In this document: piece by piece, positions 3,697 through 54,094 of the stretch
Layout: the number at the start of each line of letters is the position of its first letter
Numbering within the stretch: position 1 is the stretch's first letter
Assembly (NCBI RefSeq): GCF_023343835.1
Contig: NC_064439.1
Location: 40,665,508 to 40,729,507 of the forward strand
Source: Lagopus muta
Taxonomy: Eukaryota; Chordata; Aves; Galliformes; Phasianidae
Direction of reading: 5' to 3'
DNA: 64,000 nucleotides
Program-made: the position numbers and the translations under genes
The notes under the pieces: generated by a model
Databases searched by the model: none
What the model was told of the DNA's origin: nothing
The model's input: only the letters and a program-made list of their open reading frames with translations

Positions 3697-4724
3697 TCAA
3701 AATTGCTGTAGAATCGTGTGGCAGCTTCAGACAGGAACTCCAAAAGCGAGCGGCTCTTCTCCTGTTTGTGGAGGAAGAGCTCTGTAACCTGAAAGCCTCG
3801 TTTAGATGTCCGTGCAAATCAGTTCAGTCAAATATCATCTGGCTACACATCTCCAGCTAACAGAGCTTCCATCTTGAGCTGTACCCACCTGAGCTGCAAA
3901 AATCCCCATAGCCTGGAAGCTTTGTGGCTGTGCACAGTTCTGGGGAAAGACACAGTAATAGCAGATGCAATATGGAAGATGTTGATCGTGTAACACAACC
4001 GAAATTGCCAGAAGTGTCTGTCACATAGAGAAATTTGCTTTGCTTTCTTGGCCCAATAGGGCCATTTCCAAAGGTAATTGCTTCTTAATGTAATCTTGTC
4101 AGCAGTGAGCCCTAGACCAGGACTGAGGGCTCTGAGTTGTGTAGTAATTTTCATACTGATTCCATACGTTGTCATATTTAAATTGGGTTGCCATAGAATT
4201 TCTGATCCTGATCCTGAGACGCTACTCCACACAAAAGGAGAATTAGAGCAGGGCTTATCACCTTCTCGCCCCGTGGCTTTGGGGATATGGCTTTTCTCAT
4301 TCTGCATCAAAAGCACTGGAGATCATTTCCAGTATGGCTGTGTGCTTTTCCTTGTGTTTCTGTGGGATCCCTGCACTCAGGACGAACTAGATGGTCAAGA
4401 GCAAGGCAAGGTTGTGCATAAGGCCAGTTTTTAACAGAGCAGGAAAAACAGTGGACAAAATTGGGGTTTTATCCTTGCCCAATGCACAATATTCTGGCTC
4501 TGCTGTTTGGGTGGCTTTGTCCCTCACATCCTACCTGCCTCCATGCCTTCTGTAAGCAGTGCTGGGGGAGAAATGTGAGGAAAGATCTGCTGATCTGTAC
4601 ATTGCAGGAGGCTGCAGGGGAAGAACCTATGGAGTGACAAGTTTTCCCTGCAGAGAACATAATTTCTGCATAGGTAAGCACTGCAGGGCTGAATGGAAAC
4701 CTGCTTTTGTGCAGATTGCATCAG

Positions 4725-21200: not shown

Positions 21201-24200
21201 GTTAAAAATACCAATGAGCTCTTTTCCAAATCACAACATTGTAACAACAGCCTGGAGATTTTGGAGGTCTGGCTCACAGTTCCTTAATGTTCAAGCAGTA
21301 ACCTTTTTATTACTTCTAATCTTTGTGCCAAATGTAAGGCCTGAATATTACAGGTCAGCAGTTTGTGTCTTGTGCTAAACTGCTGTAATTGTTTATTTGT
21401 GTGTAATGATTATGACCGTTAACATCCTGGTTCTTGTTTAAATTGTGGCTTCTTTCAGCTATGAGATCTATGCACAGGGACTTCCACATCCACGAAAATC
21501 AGGCCTTGCCCTTTTATAACTAATAGCTGGTTTGCTTCCCAGGGAAAGCTGACCACATGTCATCCTACCATGTTTTTTACAAAGCCTTCAACTGTGTAGC
21601 CTCCACATTTCAGTCTCCAGCAGGAACGCGCCAGCAGCAGCAGAGAATAAGATGATGGAGCACAAGGAGAAAACCTTACCAACCCATCATTCAGCCTTTG
21701 AAGAGACGTACCTATTATATCACAAGGCAACAAGCAAGTAAGGCTTCCACCAATTTCCATGCCAGCAGATGTAAAACTGTGGCTCTGGCAACACGGACAC
21801 ACTGACACCTCTCACCTGCCATCAGCTTATGGAAAATATTTAGGTTCATGACCTGTGCTCTAAAACATTTACAGGAAATCTTGCAACGAAGTGGCATAAT
21901 GGTTTTATTTGCTTGATTGGTTACTTTGAATATCAGCAATAACAAGGTGGCAAAACAAATGTCAAGACTTAAGGAATAGCTCCTCAACCCTCACTCACAT
22001 TGCTTATGGCTATACAAGTCCAATTAATTTTCTGAGAAAACTGTGAACCTCAGGAGCTAAACTGTTCATAGTTCAGCTTCCAAAACGCTGATTTGGTGAG
22101 TTTTAGTATCCAGGAGGTGCTGACAGCACCTGTGAACTCCAAAACAGGTCATCTGCACCCCTAGCGTGCTGAAAGATCCAGCCTAGAGACACCTTTCCAG
22201 GAAATTAAAATCATGTGATCCTTGTGATCTCAGGTTTTATACAAGACCCTGTTTTTATCTCCCAGATTGCTTCTTGGCAAACTTTCCCTGTCTTTTTCCA
22301 CCTCTCTTTTAAACTCAGCATGCTCATAATTTCCTCCTCGCGAGTGAGTTATCATGGACTTCACTGGCACCTCCTACGTAGTTTTTTAAGTCACATTATT
22401 ATGAAATGAGGACATAAAGAAAGAGAACAAGAATATCAGGCACCAGATGCTGATTAAATGTAAGGTTCCTTTGTCAGACGTGTAAGACTGAAACATCGCA
22501 AAGTCTACCACTGGTTCTATTTCCTTTCTCTGTCATGCTCTTCCATCTTAACAGAGCCGTGCAACTCAAAGGGCTCAGGTGCAAGTGAGAATCTGTCCCA
22601 TGGCCCACATTAAATCTCCTTAAAATAAAGCTCAGCTTGTAATTGCACGTAGAAAGCAAACATATTCTGGAACATGAAAAATAGGATAGGGTAAGGAAGG
22701 GTAGGATAGGACAGAGCTGTAAAAAGGCAGCAAACCAAGATAGCTGAGCTGGGAGCATAACTGAAGGCCCACAGTGCACTCGAAGCAGAAATGATGGCAC
22801 TGGTGAACGATGCTGGTGAACCACCTCATCAGCAGTTCTTAATCGCATTAAGGAGACATCATCGACAGGAAAAGAATTAAGTATTCTACCTATCTGTCTA
22901 CCTTGAAAGTTAATAGGAAAAGTACCTTGAGTGGTAATGCCACAAAACAGAAATGTAACCCTTCTGCTTGGTTTTGGCTTCAGATGGGGAGTCCTTCCCA
23001 ACCAGCCCCGTCCTGCTGCCAGACTCCTGCTTGGCCTCAAGTTCTTTACCAACAGAGTGGTGAGGTGCTGGAACGGGCTGCCCAGCAAGGCTGTGGATGC
23101 TCCATGTCCCTGGAGGTGTTCAAGGCCAGGCTGGATGGGGCCCTGGGCAGCCTGGTCTAGTATTAAATGGGGAGGTTGGAGGCCCTGCATACGGTAGGGG
23201 TGTTGGAGATTTGTGATCCTTGAGATCCCTTCCAACCCTGGCCATTCTGTGATGGCCCAGCACGGCCCCTGCTGCAGGTGGGCACTGGTCAGACTGGGGC
23301 TGCCCTGGCACAGGGGTCCCACATATCTCCTGGCATAAGCGGAGCTCATCTTGGGTCACTTCCCTCAGGATCCAGCACAACGTGGTGAGCACACATCCTG
23401 CTCACCGGGACCTGCACTCCCAGAGGCGTTGCTTGCCTGCTCTTTGTCTCACTGACCCGGCCATCAAACCCCCCCTCTGCTCACCTGCCGGGTTGGGAAT
23501 TCGTCAGTACTTCCCTAGCAGGACTAGAGGTGGAAGTTGCTGCAGGAAGAGCACGAGCTGCAGCTCCGACGCCGTTCCGGGAGCTATCGGAGCCGCAGTC
23601 CTTCAATTGCACCCAACCGGCGCTCCACACCCGCGAGCGAGGAGCCGGAGCCGGACTCGATGTTCCTTAAGATTCCCTTCCAGCTCGGGATATTCTGCGA
23701 CCTCGCGACACCTTCGGCGACGAGGAAGCTCTCCCCATGGGGGCGGGGGCCGGGATCGGACACCCCGGCACCACAACTCGCTGCCCAACTCGGCGGGGCC
23801 CGGCGGGAGGGGCCGCACCTGCCCGGGGCGCAGCAGGGACGGCCCCGCTGTCATCCCGACTCCATTTTATCCCTGTCCATTCTCCATTTGCCAAACGGCC
23901 CCGCGAGCCCCCAGCCGAACCCGGGCGGCACGGCGGAAGCTTTCGGAGGAGGGGCTGAGGAGCGGTGTTCGTGGGGGGGCATCGCGCGCCGTGGGGACCG
24001 AGGGGAGCCGGGGGGCTGTCCGTGCCCTGCCCGCCCCGCACCGGCCAACGACTCCATCTTGCAGCTTTCGGCGCTCGCACGGAGGGCTCCTCCGGCCCGC
24101 AGCCCCCCGGAGCTCCCCCCGAGGCCGGAGCCCCCTGGGCACGGCTCTAACACCTCCCTCCTCTCCTCCCCCCCCCGCGGTCACTCACGAAATTGTCGCC

Positions 24201-24350
24201 GCAGGCAGCCTCCGGGCACAGCACGTAGAAGGAGACGCCGGGCTCGGCGTAGAAGTCCATGCGGCGCTCCGTCTCCTCGGCGGCGATGAGCTGGAAGGGC
24301 GTGCGGGCGCACCACCGCTCCGCAGCCTCCGCCAGCGCCTCGAAAGCCAT
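15277..24350 (-). CDS. MTURN: Maturin (MTURN), 3 coding exons, 131 aa
   Basis: Coding exons on the minus strand are 24350-24189 (54 codons), 19913-19791 (41 codons) and 15387-15277 (36 codons plus TAA). All junctions are phase 0 with GT/AG borders (donors GTGAGT and GTAAGT, acceptors TTTTAG and TTGTAG). The 131-aa total equals the length I know for human maturin (C7orf41/Ells1). Diagnostic segments are ETERRMDFYAEPGVSFYVLC in exon 1, HVWSESEDCLPFLQLAQDYI in exon 2, and the acidic tail EEEEPEADHQQMGVSQQ in exon 3. Known role: a small conserved vertebrate protein that promotes neural progenitor differentiation and is also linked to megakaryocyte differentiation; no enzymatic domain is known. 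No signal peptide or membrane segment is visible. As I recall the human protein, exon 1 is the most diverged part and is alanine-rich here, which fits its position in a CpG island, while exons 2-3 are almost unchanged. The start ATG is the first codon of the conserved N terminus. The identification is secure. Confidence 0.96.
15388..19790 (-). other. MTURN: MTURN intron 2
   Basis: About 4.4 kb between exons 2 and 3, bounded by GTAAGT and TTGTAG on the minus strand. It contains a CR1 fragment close to exon 2 (19382-19645) and a short C run near 17128-17138. I found no nested gene; the ORFs here are short and unlike any protein I recognise. Confidence 0.9.
19382..19645 (-). mobile_element. CR1 3' fragment next to MTURN exon 2
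   Basis: Reverse-complement CR1 from GAATCATGGAGTCATTAAGG through CTCTGGCACGACGTCAGGCC. It ends about 145 bases from MTURN exon 2, inside intron 2, in the same orientation as the gene. Confidence 0.92.
23000..23256 (+). mobile_element. CR1 3' fragment in MTURN intron 1
   Basis: Contains GAACGGGCTGCCCAGCAAGG, TTCAAGGCCAGGCTGGATGG and CCTTCCAACCCTGGCCATTC, ending near TCTGTGATGG. Confidence 0.9.
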
Positions 24351-24760
24351 CGCCGCCGCCGCGCTCCTCGCTCCTCGCTCCGCGCCCGCCCCCGCCCCGC
24401 TGAGGTGCCGGGGTGGCCCGCGGGGAAGGGGGGGGGGGGAGAGGGAGGCGGCGGGCGGTGGGCCGGGCCTGGCCGCCCCCCGGCGGGCTGCGAGGGAGGG
24501 GGTTCCTCGGAGCACGCCGCCCCCCAGAGCCCGCTCGTTGGGCTCGCTTCTGTCTCGCCGGCGCCGACCCAGGATGTGAGGCTTCCGGGAGGACGCGAGG
24601 CGCGCCGAGCCAAGCGGTGCGGGTGGCTCCGGTCGGCGGCAGGCACCGGGCGCGGTGCGCCGTCCGTCCCGTGACGCCGGCAAGTCTGACGTGACACCCC
24701 GTCTTCGTCAGCTCCCGGAGGCTGTGGTGCTCTTCTAGGGCTTGGCCTGGGCCCGTCGCA
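23540..24760 (-). promoter_or_regulatory. MTURN: CpG-island promoter of MTURN
   Basis: The sequence is very GC- and CpG-rich on both sides of the MTURN start codon at 24350, in sharp contrast to the AT-richer flanks. A run of ten or more G lies at about 24428-24437, and C-rich tracts at about 24168-24178. The transcription start should lie between 24350 and about 24700, since transcription runs leftward. No TATA box was found at an obvious position. The island extends well into intron 1. The bounds are by eye. Confidence 0.75.
23655..23702 (+). mobile_element. CR1 3' tail remnant inside the MTURN CpG island
   Basis: GGACTCGATGTTCCTTAAGA then CCCTTCCAGCTCGGGATATT matches the tails of the CR1 copies at 29095-29145 and 54825-54872. 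It is about 490 bases into intron 1 from exon 1. Confidence 0.7.
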
Positions 24761-35704: not shown

Positions 35705-38700
35705 CTAGTCATCACTGTCACTCCCAGATTCACTCAACTGCAAGTCATTTCCTACGGGAAACAAAAACAACAAAACACAAGAAGTGGGTAGGCACATTTA
35801 ATTGCAATCAAACCAAAGTACAGCCACATGTACACTACAAGATAAAAATAAGCACAAGAACTGAATGCAAACGTCATCTCTGTTTAAGGGAGTTGTTCAC
35901 CATGCCCAAGAGCATTAAGAACTGCACAGGGCTCATACACACCCTGATCCAGGTCCGACACAGCCACGTAATCTGCTCCCCAGTGGGAGGACAGCACTCC
36001 CTTTGCTAGCAGCTGCAGAAGGCATCCCACAGCATCCACCCACCAATTTCCTCTATACAGCTCTGGGACAAGGCATTGAGGAACACACTGATTTCACCCA
36101 AGTGTTACCTCAGGCATTCGCTACTGTCAGGAACACTGTCTGCCTTTGCCAGTTTACCAGCAAGCCTTTTCAGTACCATCTGTATAATACCTAAACTTGT
36201 CCTGAAGCTGGAAACCCTACATTTATCTGCATTTGAACTCTCCCAGTTCCCTTTTTGTGGATTGCAAGAGATGTACTCAAACATGCCTCAGGAGAAATTT
36301 AAAATAAATTATGATAAATAAGTTATGGTTTCTTATAAATGTAGTATTTTAAGTCCACTGAACCTGATCCAGCGTAAAGCCTAATCCGTGTTTTCACATT
36401 ACAGTAATTCTTACCCTCCAGTGCACCATGTCCACCTGCACTAATGTTCTGCTGTTCACTCTTTCTACTTGGAGGCCTGAATTGAGACTCAGCATGGTCA
36501 ACAGGGGTCACCATGCCGATGCCCACAGGTTTTAGACCAGACTGAAGCAATCTCCACAGCTTCAGATACGTCTCAGCCTTCTCTTAAAAAAAAACAACAC
36601 ACCTGTCCACATACTTCAGCCATTGCACCTCTTTGGGATTACTGTTGGGTAAACTGTACTTCATGGAGCTAGCTTAACATGCTAGATAAGTGTCTCAAGC
36701 AGCTTCCCAGAGAAATAAGACAGAAGCTTTACTTACGGAGCGTGCTCATGAGCTGATTGCTTCCTTGTGGCCTGCTGGTGCCGTTAGCAACAGCATTCCT
36801 ATTGTTATACTGCTGGTGAGGTGGCTGGGAAGGGGAAACATGTGCTAGCTCTTCCCCCTCACTGCTGGAGCTTTCATCTTCGCTTCCAGATGAGCTTTCT
36901 GAGTCCGATGAGCTGCTTCCACTGCTGCTACTCATCTGCTCAATAATTTCAACCTCTGCTCTCAGCTCTGAAATGAAAGGACACTGATCTGGTTGGAACC
37001 ATGAATAAGCCTCATGGAATTTGGGAAAAGAATACGAAAATGCAATCGTTTTGTCAAGTACAATTTATAACATCAAAATAGCTCATATGAAAAAGAGAGA
37101 GTCAGGAAAGAAGAAACAAACCATCCCGACATTTTTTCAACCCAGTTGTTGCAGCTGAATTAGAAGAACAGCAAAGTTTAGTGCCACAAAACCTTCATTT
37201 CTGTTATTATTACTTTTAAACTTTACACTTACAAAAACACTTCCTGCTTCATTATTTTCCCACAAGATTTTATGCTTTAAATACAAACTAAACACATTTT
37301 CTCAATGAGCCTTACAGGCCAAAAGCCAGCCCTTTTTTTTTTTTTTTTTTTAAAAGCATTTAAACATGCAGGACTCTAAATTCTGGTAGAAGTCAGTGAC
37401 ATTTAGGCTTCTGGTAAATGCAAAGAGAGAGAGAAAGCATAGGCATATGACCACAACAGAAGCTGCTTTGACTTAAGAGTGTATGAAACTGCTCCAGCAC
37501 AAAGTCACACAGCTCATTTTAAAGAAACTCAGGAAACAGATAAATGACATCAGGTAACTTAGCAGTGGGACAGGCAAGAACAGATGAGAACCTTCACACA
37601 CTGGAGAGTAGTGACAGTGGTGCCATAGAGCTAACAAGTAGCCATGGAAAACGGACTGCTCTGAAACTGGGAAGTTATTCAAGTCAGTCACACTTCACTT
37701 TATGGTTACCAGCATAAAGAAATAGTGGAATAGCATGACAGCCTCATCAGCAAAAGTTGGTGCTGGCTGAACAACTGGTTACTGTGCAGACTTTAAGGTA
37801 AGTCACAAACCATTCCACATTGTTAAATTTGTTGTAATTACAAACTCTGTTAGAGGAATATTTTTTTTTTTCCTGTATCTATGCACAAAGCTGAGTATCT
37901 AACTACTTACTTCATGTAGGAAGGTTTCCAGGAAGGAACAATATTCACATGTGTTATTCAAAGTATAAGAAACCATCAAAATTTAGGCTCTCATTGTGCT
38001 AGCAGTTCTACACCCACAAGGTAAGAACTCAGTGCTTGTCCTGGACAACTTAAGGGCTAAAGAAAAAAGGATGAAAGAAGAGACAACAGAAACACAATTG
38101 TGCCTACCCAACAAATGGAGAACTGACACTAGGAGTAATTTACCTTAGATCAGTCTTGAGAGTTACTCAGACTGAGATGAAGCACAACTCCTGAGCTAGG
38201 GACATCTTCCTGATATGGCATACCCAGAGCATACAAAGCAAGTCCCTCCTTCATGTAAAAATGGCACAGTTTTAATTCTTACTGTCTTCAGACCACGCAC
38301 AAGTAAATGCGAACAACTGGAACTCTTCTGTTTTTTAATAAGATCAGTTTTCCTTGGGCTGCTTAACACTTCAGTGTAACAGCTAAGTTTTCAGCCTCCA
38401 CATAATTTGCTGGCAGGAGTTCCCCTAGCTCAGCAGGTATTGCTTTCAGAAATTAACTTATCCTTTGCCTGTTCTGAAGCTGCTACTTTTCAATTTCAAA
38501 GTTCAGAGCTCAATTTCAAGTGCTATAGCTATATTGAATTAGAGACAAGGAAGGCATATTGAAAGAGAACAACTGTATTACTAACTCCAGCTGGGTATTT
38601 AGTGATAATGGGGTTGTTCCTCAAGTCCACTTCCTGAAGTGAGATCCCCGACTAGATCAACTGTGGTTTTTGTGCTTTATTAGTATGCCAGGCAAAATTT

Positions 38701-44700: not shown

Positions 44701-47700
44701 TTTACAAGCAGGAAGCTCTCTCATACCAGAAAACACTGCAGTATAAATAGCTATACGCTGGCAGAAGAGAATAGATAATTCACCTTTAAGATGAGATGTA
44801 AGACAACAAACCAATTGTAAAGAACCAGCTTCTAATCCCTGAACATTCTAACACGTTTTTATACATTGTAAGTCATAGTTTTTATTAAAAAGAAGAAAAA
44901 CAATCCAAACCCAGAAGTCACACACCCTTCTTTACCTCTCTTAATGTCATCCAGTTGAGGCTCAGGTGAAGGATTATCTTTCAAAGGAGAAGTTTTAGGT
45001 CCAGTTGCTGGCTTGGTTGGGGCTCTGAACTGTGGAGGAGGTTGAGATGCTCGGGCAGACTGTTGTTCTATTCGGGCTTGGATCTTACTGCTGCCCTCTG
45101 CTCTGAAACAACAATCAGAGACATTGAGCACTACTGTGCATCTGTGTTCAGCTTTTTCAATATCCTTGTGCTAATGCATGATGTGTGACTTCCTTTGAAC
45201 AGCACTCTATGTTGTTTCATTAAGCTGAGCAGTGAGTGACAGGTTTCTGTATGTAACACATGATTTTGGCAGCAAATATGCCTACTGCAACATCCTTAAA
45301 AAATGCATTTTCAAACCCAGGTGTGTCTCAGCGGTGCCAAATTCACAAGCTGAAGAATAATAAAGGTTTTCATTTAGCAATCAATATTTGTAATTTTAGA
45401 AAAGCATTAGCAACCACACTAGTTTAAATCAACCATATGAAAAAAAAAAAAAAAAAAAAAAAAGCACTCATAACAAAATCCTGCTTAACATCACCACAGC
45501 AAAATAAATGTTTTTCTCACTTGCAATTGTACATTCTCAAACTGAACTCTCTCAGAGGTCAACCTGACTGGAGCAATCTGTTTTGCTGATAAATACAGCA
45601 TGAAAGCATTTATTTCTCATTTTTCATTCACTTACTATTATCCCTTAGAAGAAAAAAAAAAGAAAAAAAAAAACACCAAAAAACCAGTTTAATATGTTTC
45701 CTTAGTGGGAAATTGTCTACAGGATAATGCCATGCTTAGCTGATCAATCCCAATCAGGTGTTATTTCCTTTTCTGAATCAATGGCGTTATTTGGACTGTA
45801 GAACAGTCAATACCCTTGGAAGAAAAAACATACTCAGGTCCCTCTGTGTCACACTACAGTGAGGTTAAAGTATGGAGTGTATTTATCACACAGCAACAAA
45901 GCCTTTGGGAATATGTCTCTATGTAGCACAGCATGGAAACAGTTTATGTGTATAATAAGAGCTCAGTTTTGGTTCAAGAGGGTCCCAGCTCCATAACGTG
46001 ACACTTTGTGCCTGTAAGCTCTTCCCACACAGAAACAAGTTAAACTAGCCCATATGGAACTTCCTGGGACTTCACCTAAACATCTTCTGGTATCTGACCC
46101 ACTGCATTTAGCACTAATTAAAGAATGTGTGTGCTACAGTGAATCACCGATGAAGCCACAAAAACTAGGCACAGAGCCACCTCCTCCTTACTGAAATACA
46201 GCCTTTACGTATGACAGCAGTACACTTTACATAGACATTTATGAGGCATTCTTACTCAGAGGATAGTGAGGCACAGCTATCCGAGAAGCTGTGGTGCCCC
46301 ATCCCTGAAGGTGCTCAAGGCCAGGTTGGACGGGGCCCTGGGCAGCCTGGTCTGATGGCTGGCTGCCCTGCCCACAGCAGGTGGGCTTTAAGGTCCCTTC
46401 CAGCCCAAACCATTCTAAGATTCATGATTTGTTCTGTGATTTAGAGTAGAAGTGAAGATCTGGGGACATGTTCACTACCTCATGTGAAAGGTCAAAGCAA
46501 AAGACCATCTCCAGTATTAATTATGCTCTTAGAACTACAGAAGACCATATGTAGACAAAATGCAGTTTCACCTCTAGGAATGTAATCACGATGTCCACAC
46601 TAAAAACTCTGCTCCTACACTGTCCACAGGTTGTTGAAATCCAAGTAGCCATGAAAAAAAAAAAAGCCATTTCTGAGATAGAATACTGAAGGACTTAAAA
46701 AAAAAAAATAATAATAATAAAAAAATCACCATTCCTCAAAACATAGATCCCCAATTTTTTTTTCCCCTGCCTCTGCTTAAGAAAAGCTGAAATGTTTAAA
46801 CCTTAACAGAGTCAAAACTCAGTGTATCCTAAACAGCATACTGAACACAAGCTCTCCTGGTACTCCTTGGCTCCTTTCTGCCTTAAGCTTCATCTGGCAT
46901 TATCAGCAGAATTTAAATTGCTGGGAATCTAAATCTCATCTGTAAGTACTCCTATCCAGTGGACAAGACGTCTTGCCTTTGAGTGACACATGGATGAGTT
47001 ACCATTACTGACACAGAGAAGCATTACAATCCATTTACTTTTAACTCAAGGTGGTTTTTGGCAAACTTCCATCCAATTCCTAATAAGCTGCAACCCACGT
47101 TCCTGTTACTTGTAGCAGCTAAAAGCTCTACAGCGCAGTGAAGTGTTTTTTTTCTTTAAAAAAACGTAACATACTTGTAGAATTGTTTAAGATCTGCTTC
47201 TTCAGGAAACTGCTTTTAGATCTTAATATCCTGTGTTCCATTGGCTTTGAAGGAACAGAATCCAAAGGTTTCAGGCACTTGCAGAACAGCAAGACTACTA
47301 AAAACGTTCCAGCTGTTCACTTTGTAGCATTTGCACAAGTCTGAATATTGGGTCAGAGAGATTTCTGGCCTTGGCAATTCCAGGCAAAACCCCACAACCA
47401 TTATTTCTTCAGTTTTCTTTTTTTTTTTTTTTTTTTTTCCCTTTCAAGTTGAAGCTTTGGACTTTGCTCCACTCAATGTGCCACTGATCCAATACAGTGA
47501 TAAGCATTTCTTGCTCCTTAATAGTATGTTATTAAAGTATCATGACTCCCACAGAAGCTGTAGGGAACAAGCCCATAAAGCACAACAATCCTTTTGACAG
47601 CCTACTATTTTCATCATCTGTTTCAACTAACCAGAGACTCCTGAAACACATTCCATCTTTCAGCCAGCTTCAAAAACTTCAAATCGTCAGAGATGCTTCA

Positions 47701-50700
47701 CTGCAAACTATAATTATGTCCTTTCAGCGGTGGAAAATTTACGAATTCTTTACTCTTGGATTTATGCTCCCAACAGCTACTTTTGTTTTTTTAGGCAAGA
47801 TAATTGGCTGTGTAAAGCTGATAAGGTTTAGTAAGCAAACATTATTCCAAAATAAAAGATAATCGAGTTCAGGTTTGAAAGATACCATCTGAGCAGGAAA
47901 CTTCAGCAAGAATTCATCCTATTAACTCAGCCCAGTCACCAGCTTTACCTTGTTTTCTTGACTTGAATGTTGCTACTGAGTTTTTCCAGAACATACTCCC
48001 CAGTGTCATGATTGATAATAAGCACACAGTCCTTCTGATACGGCCTTTTATTTCCTTTAAAAACAGTCATTGGAGGAGTTGAACCCTGGTATCAAAGAAA
48101 GAGCACATTTTTGTTTGGTTACATTTCTCTATCTAAAAGTTTATAAACACTAAGGCAAATGATTGTGTTTCTTCTGACTAGGGGGCTAAGCAGATAATAG
48201 TTAGCTCCTACTGAAAATACTCTTTCATGAAAAGGGAAAAATACAGTTAATGCAGTAGAACCAGCTTCCTCATAGCAACATTATGCCTTTCATCACACTA
48301 TGTGCCTAAACAGGGATGAAACACCTTCTCCATAGTTGCCATTATTTACATTTGTTTGCTTTCCTGCCATTAATGTGCATCACAACAGGACATTACAAGA
48401 CATACTGAAAGAAGTTCTCAGCTACGAGTCCTCAGATTTCACTGTAATACACACTTAGCTATTCAATACAAGAGAAATGTTACAAATGTTTATTCATACA
48501 CATCTTTGCACATTAATGGCAGGAAAGCAAACAAAATCAGGAATAAATTTTATTCCGAGTAGCAAAGCAAATCAATCAAATGTTATCAATTCAGAATGAA
48601 ATTCCTGTTCCCAGCATTGCTAATAAATAGAATATGCTTCCATCTAAAATGGCTTCTGAACATTAAGGGCGAAAAAGGAGAATTTCCAACAAAGATACTG
48701 TAAGATGTACAGGTACGATTCAGAAAACATCAAAGTCTCATGACAGTCTCATCTTCAAAGGCCTTTTACATTTTTATCACTCCTACATTTAAGCGAGGAA
48801 AATAACATTTAAGGGAATAAAAAGCAAGTTGAAAGTCAAAGCCTGTTCCCTGTTGACAAATAAATCAGGAAACAAAGAACAAATTTAACAAAAGCTGATC
48901 AAAGTTTGTTGGCCACCACTCTATGAACCAGGGACCTCTAAGCTCACAAAAGACTCTGATTTGGGCTGAAAAATGAGCAGAGATTTAAGCCCTACCTAAG
49001 TAATCCCTAACACAGGGTTTCCAGATCCTGCTGATTACAGCACAGAAGAAGATGGATGATACAGGTAAAATAACCAGAGCTGTTTGCTAAACTCTCATGC
49101 TTGAGAACAGAGATTCTTCATTTCTCCAAACATGACTGTTTATCAAACATGAAAGCTGCTAAATCCACAAGTAGAAATAGTGTTTCAAGTTACCCAAGCA
49201 GTCAAGGGACACGAAACCAACTCCACTGAACAAATCATCAAACAGAGACATCTTCAGGGATCAGGCAATTTCAAAAAACAAGCTAGAATCTGCATCCAGC
49301 TGGCACGCATCTCAGAAGCAAAGCAGGAACCAAGAAATTCTGTAAAGTTTGTAAGAGTGAAATGACCTCAGAATTTTTCACTCCTCTTATTATATTCCAC
49401 GTTTCTAAGGAGCATAAGCAGTGCTTCTGTGGAACAACAGACACACAGTGGCTGCAGTTAGGTCCCGTCCCTCTGGAGCACACTGTGAGCTGAAAGCCAC
49501 TCATAGCAATACAATCAAATTAAACTCATCAGAAGAAAGATTTGGAAAGGGGCATTACAAGCAATGTTGTTCAATACAAAATCTGAATGAACAGCACAGT
49601 TGCCAGACAATCAAAAGTAAATACCATGGCTATTAATCACATCGTTGCCTGCTCCCAAACAGCACTACTGTGCTCACCACTTCTATACACAAACGAAAGC
49701 AGGCAAACTTCCAAACGTGACCAAAGCCAGATAAAAGGCAGGAGCGGGGAAGCAGGCTAAAGCCTTATTCACCAGGAGTATTACCACAGTACCAACAGCT
49801 ACTGATTAAAAATACCAATGTGCTAGAATTAACAGTCCCACAGGAATCTGAGATGTGGCTTCCAAAGTGACTGGTGCTGCCCTGCTATCACCAAACTTAT
49901 CTGTATCTCTGAATTTTGTTTATTAGCTTGACACGTAGCATTATTTTCAGCTAATAAACAAATCCAGTTCCAGCATGCAAGTGTTTTTGTTTTGTTTTTT
50001 TTTTTTGCTTTGTTTTGGTAAGGCAACCACAGAGCTTTCAACGACAAAACAGCTACATCTGTAAACAGTTTTAACACTTGTTTTATTACTGTGTGACCAT
50101 CAGTCTCATCAAGTAGATATTTATGGCATAATTTAAGGAGGAAGTGGATGGGAAACTACTTCATTGTTGCTCACTAGAAAACTCCCCCCTGTCCCATTGA
50201 TAAAGCTAGAGGCAGGGTACCATCTGTCCTATCTGTGCATGTAGGAAATAAACAAGGCTACAGGCCCAGCTTCAGCTTCTGAACAGCACATCCTGACTAA
50301 ACCCACAGTTACTCCGCTTCTATTCCTTACATTGTAGCACTAAAAATGGAAGGAAATCAGGTAGAGAGCTTCAGCTAAAAGAAGTCGTTGTCCTTTTATA
50401 CAAGTAACAGTAAGAAGGAAGGAATCAAAAGAACCAACTGAAGCCCTACAAATAAGGCTCTTAACACAGACTCAATTGCACGGTCCTCTCCTCGCATAAC
50501 GTGCTGTAACTTTAGCTGCTCAAACACTGAGCCCACCTCTTCCAACAAGAGCCCAACCTCTTCCAACAAGTAAAAAATAACATACAGGGCAGAATGGAAT
50601 TACATTGCAAATAATAGGGATACATTCAATACCACAGTCAGCATTCTTACCGGAATATGTGGCAAAGTGATTGTTACATCATCTCCTTTACCCACTTGGA

Positions 50701-53700
50701 TCTCGCCTTCACAAGACGTATCAATCGATGCCGGCTTAAAATCATCTAGGGAGGAAAACAATTGTGATTATGACTCTTGGAATCTTCAGAATTTGGAGCC
50801 TTTAGAATTCTCCTCGGCAAAAAGGCACCACACATTCACTGTGGCTACAGGAAATGCTAAAATACATAGTGGCTTGCACCAGGGGTGAAACAGTACACCA
50901 GTATAACCTTGTTCATATTCACAGCTCCTGCCACCTGATGGTAACAGATGTAAAATTCTCTTTTAAAAATGGAAGTAAATTACCAGACTGTGTCTGAAAG
51001 ACCAAAAGCAGGCTCCTCCTGATGTTTGATGTTGCACACAGGTGTAAAACTGTATCAAGCATCCCATAGGAGTATCAGGTCCCAGACCCAGGACTCTATG
51101 GCTCCTGCCACCTCCAAACCTGAGGACTCCATCTATATCAAAGGCTAATTGAATGAGACCAGCTCATTTAACCTCACTGATATTTTTGACTACTAACAGA
51201 CATCTTGCCTTTGCAACACCCACTTGAGAGGACACCTTAGCTCCCATCTATGGGAAAAAAAAGGTGCTGGTGTTATTTCACCAGGCTCCACACAGGGCCA
51301 AAACTGCTGTAGATGGAGAATGGAGAGCATAACTGAGGTCAGACACTGCTGCTGCTCTAAACAAAGCCCCACTTTCAATAATTTCTGCCACACTGTATGG
51401 AATGCTTTCTCCCTCAAGTAATGCGTTTGTGTTTAGTATATTTATTTGAACTAAGAATATTTTAACTTCAAAAGTATTTCCCCCTCTGTAATTCTGTCAT
51501 GCTGATGAGCCATGAAAACCTGTAACATTGTGACAGAGGATTTAGACAAAATGAAATAAGATCAGACAGCTAAGTATTTCTTTTAAACAGGCATCCATAC
51601 AATTCTAGCATCTCTGGATACAAGAGGTGCAGTTACATTTGCAACCAAGACTTTTAATTACTGCATTAGTTAAGACATCAATATCTTAGAAAAACTAAAT
51701 TTCAATTGCACTATGAAAAGCACATTTGCCAGGGAAAGAAAACAGCTTGTAATAAATTCTCATTAAGGGGACGTTAATGTCTAATTGAGTTTCACTTTGA
51801 CAGCACAACAAGCAGAATCAGGCACACTTGACTTAATCCTCATGCCTTAACTGCCAGACCAAATCACATCTTTCATATTCATCTGCGCAATCAATTTCTA
51901 GCTATTGTTTCCCACCTACTTTATGTGCAAGCTTGCTAAATAAAACAAAACAGCTGTAGATGAGCTGCAGTCTTTGCCAAAAAGGGATCAAGGGTTTCAA
52001 TGGCACAGTCACTAAATGAAAAAACACAGCACTATGATGCTCCTTTCTTAGGTATAAGTAAAATACGCTTACTCTAAGCAAACACACAACAAATTGCTTT
52101 CATTCAGAAAGCTCATTAGGCATGCATGCTCGGCTAGTTTTGCTGTAGATGGAGTGCACGTATGCCTTTTCAGCTGTAAAACCCAATCCTTTTTCCAAAA
52201 GTCAAATATTTTTAGATGCATTTCCAAACCCAGTTTTTCAGTACAGGATTTCATAAACGTCACAGAAAACAATAAAGTGTTTTAAGGAGGAAGAGACAAA
52301 TCCAGCTTGCAAAATCCTCTTACTGCAGTTTGCATGAAGAGGATTACAGGGATGATATAATGCTCAGTTCCCAGACAGATCATCAAGATCAACCATTAGG
52401 AAAAAGAAAATCAAAAGAGATCTCACTTGAATGTCATCGACTAAAAATACAGCACATTAAAAGCTCTTCTGAAATAAAAAACACACTCTTTCAATTGTAG
52501 CCTGAAGTGCTTTGGCTCTGCAACCCCTGGAGAACTTGATTATGAAAGCACTTTACATTCTAGAAATACACCGCATTGCTATCTGGATACAGCTTGGGTT
52601 TAATTCGCCCACTATCAGACGGCATCCTCATTCCTTTGATGGTCGGGCTATTTTAAATCTTTGATTTATAAATGGGGATTTGCTGGTGCAGCAGAGCTGG
52701 CTAGAAGCATTCAGTGCTATATGTAAACAGCTACATACACCAAATGTATGGTACAGCATTCTTCAATATGGTGGAATTATGCATGATCAGAGGGAGGAAC
52801 CACGCAAAATTTAAGCAGGCAGAAGCTTTTGTTTGGGGAAATGGCTTTGCTTCAAGCACTGATCATCTTCTTGAGGAACAGCTCAACCTAGAAAGTTGTT
52901 CCCTCAGTTCTCGCTCAGACCTCACCAAATTACACATCACAACCACGAGACTGCACTCCCAGGACTACACATCACGTAGCAAAAACCTCTATTATTAATT
53001 GTACCAATTCCTCACCCAATCACAAAGCGACCAAAATACAACTTCAGCATTATTCTCATTTACTGCTGGTGATTAACTACTCATTTTAAGCCCTGGGCCT
53101 GTTTACAGAATCACAGAATCCTAGGGGTCAGAAGGGAGCTCTGGAGATGACCAAGCCCAACTCCCTTGCTAAAGCAGGTTCCCCACAGTAGGTTGCAAGG
53201 ATGAAGTAGCAGTTCCCTGGGAATGATTAGGACATGAAATAGCAATTTTTTGCCAACAGAATTCCAGCAGAGGAATGCAGTGAGCTCTTTCCTCTCCAAA
53301 ACCATCTCCTTAACATGAAACAAAACGCTCCCAATGTTACATGAGAACAGTTGGAGTGGTCTCTGTCGACTTAATGGCAGATTGTTCCTGTTATTCTAAA
53401 ACTGTTAATGCTAGAGACCATGCCTCAACACTTCTCTTACTCTTCAGAGTTACCACATATATGGCAACACCGTGTGAGCCTGAGTCACTTCTCCCCGCTT
53501 CCCCAGAAAGTGATTTACTACCTAGATCACTAGAGGAGGGGTCGTGGTGCCACGACAGCAACCACCTCCATTCAAACTTTAAATCCAAACTGCGGCTCCT
53601 TGAGCCGGGCCCGCGGTGCCATTAGGGAGGAGAATAAAGGAACACAAGCAGCAAACCGTCCACTCACGGTGGATCCAGGGAAAACTTCAGACAGCATTCA

Positions 53701-54094
53701 ACCACGCCAGCTTCACCCCCACTGCCTGCCGAGACCCTGGGTGGGACGGGGTGGACGCTGACGGGGGAAACGGGCGCAGAGAGAAGGAAGAAGGACGGGC
53801 CGGGGGAGGCACAGCCGCAGTGAGCGAGGGGCGACAGGGGGGAGGGACCCCGGGAGGGCGGCGGGGCATCGCTCTGCCCACAGCCCAGCACAGCCCGGCG
53901 GGAAGGGGCCGAAGGCAGGGGGCTCGTCCGCAGGAGGGGCGGGAGGAAAGACGCGGCCAGGCTAAGCGGGAGGAGAAAGGAGGGCGGTGCTCACAGCGGA
54001 TGGTGTGGAAGAAGGCCTTGGGCCGCCGCTCGAAGCTCTCGCCCAGCTGCAGCGGGTGGTCCTCCTTGTCCAGCGGGTTCGCCGAGCCGTTCAT
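35705..54094 (-). CDS. EAF1: ELL-associated factor 1 (EAF1), 6 coding exons, 258 aa
   Basis: Coding exons on the minus strand are 54094-53995, 50745-50651, 48085-47949, 45102-44936, 36967-36737 and 35751-35705 (777 nt, 258 aa plus TAG). The phases join cleanly. EAF1 binds ELL and ELL2, stimulates RNA polymerase II elongation, and is found with super elongation complex components in Cajal bodies and nuclear speckles. Visible parts: the N-terminal EAF/ELL-interaction domain at about residues 10-110 ([19 protein letters not shown], then [20 protein letters not shown] and [16 protein letters not shown]); a proline/serine-rich linker with [20 protein letters not shown] at about 150-167; a serine/acidic transactivation region at about 179-210 ([20 protein letters not shown]); and the terminal motif [11 protein letters not shown]. 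The poly-proline run I remember in human EAF1 is shortened here to PPPQ. The start follows the canonical MNG N terminus. EAF2 is less likely, because the linker and C terminus match EAF1. Confidence 0.97.
36415..36582 (-). CDS. EAF1: Candidate 168-bp cassette exon in the last EAF1 intron
   Basis: This lies on the EAF1 strand between exons 5 and 6. A pyrimidine tract (TGTTGTTTTTTTTTAAG) gives an acceptor just before 36582, and CTGGAGG|GTAAGA gives a donor after 36415. The 168-nt exon is open throughout. With the phase-1 end of exon 5 (…CTC C) it begins CAG AAG GCT GAG, and it leaves phase 1 (…CTG GAG G) so that exon 6 continues in its normal frame. Inclusion would add 56 residues, including [20 protein letters not shown] and [18 protein letters not shown], between the serine-rich region and the [11 protein letters not shown] tail. 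I do not know of this exon in mammalian EAF1. It could be a chance open stretch, since 56 stop-free codons alone is not rare. Confidence 0.4.
39387..39440. repeat. Purine-rich (GAAAA)n-like tract
   Basis: Almost uninterrupted A/G run in EAF1 intron 4. On the transcribed strand it is a pyrimidine tract. Confidence 0.8.
41314..41346. repeat. 3 x 11-bp tandem repeat
   Basis: CTGGAAGTCAT, CTGGAAGTCAC and CTGGAAGTCAG in succession, in EAF1 intron 4. Confidence 0.85.
41849..43227 (+). mobile_element. Degraded full-length hAT (Charlie-like) DNA transposon
   Basis: The left end CAGGTGTGTCCAACCT (41849-41864) and the right end, read in reverse complement as CATGGCTGTCCAACCT (43227-43212), match at 13 of 16 positions. 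The flanking 8 bases, CTCTACAT (41841-41848) and CTCTAAAT (43228-43235), agree at 7 of 8, which is the 8-bp target duplication typical of hAT. Inside, an open frame around 42405-42620 reads [20 protein letters not shown] and then [14 protein letters not shown]. This resembles the hAT-derived transposase relatives GTF2IRD2, ZBED and FAM200. No intact transposase remains. It lies in EAF1 intron 4, in reverse orientation to the gene. Confidence 0.85.
45103..47948 (-). other. EAF1: EAF1 intron 3
   Basis: About 2.8 kb (donor GTAAAG, acceptor TTTCAG). It contains a plus-oriented CR1 3' fragment at 46250-46428, A-rich runs near 45438-45462 and 46690-46722, and a T run at about 47418-47438. No coding signal. 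Confidence 0.9.
46250..46428 (+). mobile_element. CR1 3' fragment in EAF1 intron 3
   Basis: Contains GTGCTCAAGGCCAGGTTGGA, GGGGCCCTGGGCAGCCTGGT and GGTCCCTTCCAGCCCAAACC, ending ATTCTAAGATTCATGA. Confidence 0.92.
48351..48535. repeat. Perfect 29-bp inverted repeat with a 127-base spacer
   Basis: The left arm 48351-48379 (begins TTTGTTTGCTTTCC, ends TTAATGTGCA) is the exact reverse complement of the right arm 48507-48535. Pairing stops at once on both sides of each arm. It lies in EAF1 intron 2. Confidence 0.9.
50531..50571. repeat. Two-copy tandem duplication of 20/21 bp
   Basis: GCCCACCTCTTCCAACAAGA is followed directly by a near-identical 21-base copy. It lies close to EAF1 exon 2, in intron 2. 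Confidence 0.85.
50746..53994 (-). other. EAF1: EAF1 intron 1
   Basis: About 3.25 kb (donor GTGAGC, acceptor CCCTAG). The exon-1-proximal part (from about 53.7 kb) belongs to the CpG island. A CR1 3' fragment lies at 53106-53195. No nested gene was seen. Confidence 0.9.
53106..53195 (-). mobile_element. CR1 3' fragment in EAF1 intron 1
   Basis: ACAGAATCACAGAATCCTAG tail followed by ACTCCCTTGCTAAAGCAGGT. Short copy. Confidence 0.85.

Follow-up and report, generated by a model that had tools for sequence, protein, structure and literature searches.

The last intron of EAF1 in Lagopus muta contains a 168-nt segment with the confirmed anatomy of a cassette exon, in that a splice site can be recognised at each end, the length is divisible by three, the phase is symmetric and the reading frame is open. 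Segments of this quality are within reach of chance in non-exonic DNA, and this one is probably an intronic pseudo-exon that is mostly skipped and is included either never or as splicing noise. On this reading, chance would have placed a good enough acceptor and donor around a stretch open in the matching frame, and the spliceosome would join exon 5 directly to exon 6. At most, a low level of unselected inclusion would occur, still in frame, giving EAF1 with 56 residues added before its last 14.

Gene model and anatomy of the segment

EAF1 lies on the minus strand of the window (the whole 64-kb stretch of DNA analysed here), where six exons (Table 1) give a 258-aa protein with the Pfam EAF domain PF09816 (E 9.8e-27). 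Residues 1-258 of this form, in which the segment is skipped, align to residues 1-268 of chain O, the EAF1 chain of PDB 7okx (268 aa; E 5.2e-136), which we take to be the human protein. This end-to-end match fits the original prediction that skipping gives the canonical protein. Exon 6 begins at 35751, within CCCGTAG/GAAATGAC (slashes mark exon borders). The gene stands head to head with plus-strand open frames at about 53.8-57.2 kb of the window, across a GC-rich stretch near 54 kb; these frames presumably resemble METTL6. Another GC-rich open frame on the minus strand, at 24150-24707 and containing MAFEALAEAAERWCARTPFQLIAAEETERRMDFYAEPGVSFYVLCPEAACGDNF, is perhaps the first exon of another gene.

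Table 1. Positions of EAF1, the segment and related features (window coordinates unless a contig is named; splice-site scores from splice matrices).
Feature	Position	Strand	Remarks
EAF1 exon 1, coding part from ATG	53995..54094	-	
EAF1 exon 2	50651..50745	-	
EAF1 exon 3	47949..48085	-	
EAF1 exon 4	44936..45102	-	
EAF1 exon 5 (Ser/acidic region)	36737..36967	-	phase-1 donor TCC/GTAAGT, exon end 36737
EAF1 intron 5 (last intron)	35752..36736	-	985 nt, phase 1
EAF1 exon 6, coding part	35705..35751	-	end of Arg codon, 14 residues, stop
Candidate cassette exon or pseudo-exon	36415..36582	-	168 nt, phase 1-1, 55 residues flanked by the split Q and G codons
T/G-rich tract and AAG acceptor GTGTGTTGTTTTTTTTTAAG	36583..36602	-	score 5.7
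Segment donor AGG/GTAAGA	36409..36417	-	score 4.5
Competing donor-like site CAG/GTGTGT	last base before site 36603	-	score 5.7; about 20 nt upstream of segment acceptor
Other phase-1 open pair in window	3889-3939	-	51 nt, scores 5.8 and 5.9
EAF2-like paralogue	G000:C11, about 10.536-10.546 Mb (searched stretch 10.527-10.547 Mb)		

The borders of the segment are read directly in the sequence as TTTTTTTTTAAG/AG and GGAGG/GTAAGA, which bears out the predicted 168-nt unit with its AAG acceptor and GTAAGA donor, and both flanking junctions are phase 1, so that its phases fit exons 5 and 6 as proposed. The description of the segment as stop-free holds for the required frame, the one with one carried-over base; the other two frames contain 3 and 6 stops. 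This open frame spans 36583 to 36326, beginning at the acceptor and continuing 89 nt beyond the donor. A strong pyrimidine tract had also been claimed. A T-rich tract does precede the AAG, but it is T/G-rich, and AAG is a weaker type of acceptor than CAG or TAG.

Splice sites were scored with splice matrices. On these, the segment acceptor (5.7) falls within the range of the five real EAF1 acceptors (4.5-8.3). The five real donors of the gene range from 0.5 to 4.8, the weakest being those of exons 1 and 5 at 0.5 each, and the segment donor (4.5) exceeds all but one of them. The segment is the sole pair scoring at least 8 (30-300 nt) within intron 5. All five EAF1 introns together hold 23 pairs scoring at least 8, 14 of them of length 3n and two open in the phase of their own intron; the segment is the longer and higher-scoring of these two. 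Just upstream of the segment acceptor, the donor-like CAG/GTGTGT (5.7) outscores the real exon 5 donor (0.5) on the same matrices, and U1 bound to this donor-like site might hinder use of the acceptor. Taken as an alternative exon 5 donor, this site would lead to a stop right after STLRK with loss of the conserved tail, making the predicted product a candidate for nonsense-mediated decay. As for splicing motifs, intron 5 has a CTGAA at 36619 that may act as a weak branch site, and it contains no TGCATG.

Inclusion would replace the junction Arg by Gln, 55 residues and Gly, a net gain of 56 residues before the C-terminal tail. The predicted products of 258 aa (skipped) and 314 aa (included, open throughout) agree with the gain originally predicted. 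When the 314-aa form is compared with chain O, query residues 1-244 match chain residues 1-254 and residues 301-314 match 255-268, leaving the insert unmatched at the R254/N255 junction. The chain resembles the skipped isoform throughout; unlike the inclusion form, it passes from R254 directly to N255 with no 56-residue insert. The proposed absence of the segment from mammalian EAF1 is borne out for this chain, in a comparison that covers one protein only. An inclusion isoform that preserves the frame is mechanically possible as judged from the sequence. Its predicted insert would be slightly basic and partly hydrophobic within an acidic region, with 7 K/R against 5 D/E among the 55 whole-codon residues, and may start with an amphipathic helix.

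Chance expectation, codon usage and composition

The anatomy was compared with two null models. Dinucleotide shuffles (n = 2000) of the 985-nt intron 5 were searched for pairs of 50-250 nt at least as good as the segment; 13.7% contained an equal or better pair, 5.6% a pair of length 3n and 0.6% a phase-1 open 3n pair, of which the real intron has one. The genomic null consisted of 20 stretches of the bird's own genome (200 kb read on both strands, or 400 kb of strand), unscreened for genes and searched for pairs of 100-250 nt. It yielded 113 pairs, 37 of length 3n, with 15 open frames in 12 distinct pairs, distributed as 8, 4 and 3 over phases 0, 1 and 2. When the mean of five null open frames per phase is scaled arithmetically, chance alone predicts about 0.2 phase-matched open segments for the EAF1 introns together (17.6 kb) and 0.01 for intron 5. 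Across the whole window, two phase-1 open pairs of segment strength are present on the minus strand, the segment included, and none on the plus strand. The segment is unusual for one named intron, but as the top candidate from a search of both strands of a 64-kb window it is nothing out of the ordinary. Comparable site pairs turn up often (113 in 400 kb of strand), and chance can account for the segment's anatomy.

Codon usage was scored in bits per codon from a human codon table. The segment scores 0.039, within the range of EAF1 exons 2-5 (-0.076 to 0.069), and its annotated frame is the best of the six by a margin too slight to count as evidence. Open intronic windows average -0.21, with 2.7% of 1042 reaching the segment's score, as do 3 of 63 intron ORFs. 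The 15 open frames of the genomic null all score lower (best -0.056 versus 0.039), though the score mostly follows composition. Open shuffles of the segment itself score as high in 431 of 934 cases, and real exon 5 does no better under the same test, with 437 of 511 shuffles as high. The codon test is therefore powerless here, the 2.7% and the 3 of 63 are mostly a composition effect, and codon usage was rejected as proof of coding.

The composition of the segment (T 0.23, purine 0.57, GC 0.51) differs from the rest of intron 5 (T 0.32-0.33, purine 0.50-0.51). In EAF1 introns 1-4, values as extreme are found in 3.4% (T), 6.0% (purine) and 4.3% (GC) of 799 windows. With cut-offs set post hoc at the segment's observed values and windows that overlap, 8 of 15,956 windows in these introns are jointly as extreme, with zero open in the tested frame; elsewhere in intron 5 the count is 0 of 495, and in EAF2 intron 5 it is 0 of 5092. 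In the 20 other stretches of the genome, 606 of 56,200 windows are jointly extreme, and in 155 of these the tested frame is open as well. Of seven real EAF1 and EAF2 exons that were measured, six would not reach all three cut-offs, and intron 5 has another stretch of similar size, at 36080-35901, with GC 0.53-0.58 and without a matching exon. Exon-like and rare in EAF1's other introns, the composition is a weak hint that mildly favours an exon.

Relatives, origin and protein context

The paralogue at the EAF2-like locus, which we take to be EAF2, offers a comparison within the same genome. Its 14-residue tail is identical to that of EAF1 (14/14), in both genes encoded by the last exon after a phase-1 intron, and the tail is also identical in the PDB EAF1 chain; the exon before it is only 37-39% identical to EAF1's. 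The EAF2-like gene differs in its last intron, which is 5273 nt long and also phase 1. On the sense strand of this intron, tblastn over the 20-kb stretch gave no relative of the segment better than E 10 among the matches listed, and none of the intron's nine site pairs (two of length 3n) is phase-matched and open. The two best tblastn matches listed, at E 0.056 and 0.078, run antisense to EAF2 and were taken as chance, so shared ancestry with an EAF2 exon was set aside.

In the bird's own genome (1.03 Gb), the segment matches one place by DNA and one by protein, counts that are lower bounds as common words were skipped. No EAF1 retrocopy, bearing or missing the segment, was found at E up to 1. 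Of the six matches obtained, three are EAF1 exons, two are EAF2 exons and one, at E 0.27, contains four stops. Pfam searched with the insert returned no relative, and PDB searched with the insert alone gave weak short matches only, seven at E 0.043-1.4 (designed TIM barrels, EB1) that were taken as chance. Scans of viral and prokaryote contigs confirmed neither EAF1 nor the cassette, nor any contaminating bird DNA. Rfam has no match inside 36415-36582 at E up to 1. Among repeats of at least 25 nt within 30-46 kb, the only one to come this close is a poly-A-anchored pair that touches the T tract and not the segment. Shorter elements include an imperfect inverted repeat of 19 nt (79%) that pairs 36534-36552 in the segment with 36755-36773 in exon 5, and a 10-nt inverted-repeat pair within the segment at 36489-36519. 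A transposon origin was rejected on the single place found by each search and on the short imperfect nature of the repeats that touch the segment. Top-ranked titles and abstract openings from a literature search contain no report of an EAF1 cassette exon, and the relevant content in the available portion of PMC7660910 is EAF1-AS1 only.

The original prediction placed the insert inside the transactivation region, a placement that rests on mapping of the paralogue EAF2 and not of EAF1. The review PMC11586179 gives the C-terminal activation region of EAF2 as 177-262. It names four segments that reportedly enhance transactivation, 162-245 and 246-262 among them, and states that the p53 interaction requires 245-262. 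Placed on EAF2 by homology, the insert would lie close to the boundary between 162-245 and 246-262. According to PMC9638944, EAF1 binds ELL at both ends and promotes self-association of ELL. Inclusion would keep the frame and separate the 14-residue tail from the Ser/acidic region by 56 residues.

Weighing a pseudo-exon against a cassette exon

Like known intronic pseudo-exons, which are frequent in this genome, the segment has paired sites that resemble the consensus and are spaced as in an exon; it differs from them in having an open frame in the needed phase and an exon-like composition. It is also close to the frame-preserving cassette exons of vertebrates, with which it shares an acceptor and donor, 3n length, 1-1 phase and an open frame, while being known here from genomic sequence alone. 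A genuine, regulated cassette exon, whose insert just before the 14-residue tail and after the Ser/acidic region could alter activation by the tail or its partner contacts, is a minority reading, well below a pseudo-exon in likelihood though far from negligible. Its splice sites score like EAF1's constitutive ones and its phases are symmetric, only 0.6% of the 2000 intron shuffles do as well, and the composition is rare in EAF1's other introns. The tail's identity in EAF1, the EAF2-like protein and the PDB chain suggests that its context may matter. The EAF2 segments tied to transactivation and p53 in PMC11586179 also count in favour of this reading. Against these points stand the lack of a relative in the EAF2-like locus and in the viral and prokaryote contig scans, a codon score matched by nearly half of the segment's own open shuffles, the comparable GC-rich stretch at 36080-35901, the competing donor-like site just upstream of the acceptor, and the post hoc choice of the candidate from a 64-kb window. 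The weights given here are judgements: for any given intron, a frame-preserving exon that has gone unrecorded is unlikely to begin with, and the shuffle result and the composition raise this low prior.

Far less probable is an older remnant, neither chance nor working exon, such as a lineage-specific exon that has decayed or a piece of an old mobile element with an exon-like composition. The contrast in composition with the flanking intron would fit such an origin; the single place found by each own-genome search (lower bounds), the short and imperfect nature of the repeats touching the segment and the empty Rfam result all speak against it. A mostly skipped pseudo-exon, normally left out of the transcript and probably not under selection, remains the preferred reading.

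If the segment is unused, it would be a clean case of how complete an unused exon can look, in which sequence anatomy alone does not establish an exon. A more specific proposal, that birds or sauropsids possess an EAF1 isoform in which a 56-residue basic and hydrophobic insert, placed exactly between the Ser/acidic region and the 14-residue EAF1/EAF2 tail, tunes contact with elongation factors or partners by tissue, is doubtful, more so than a cassette exon as such. If the segment is used, it would define an EAF1 isoform not represented in the PDB EAF1 chain, at the junction before the tail that EAF1 and EAF2 share, and would offer a natural tool with which to ask what that tail does.
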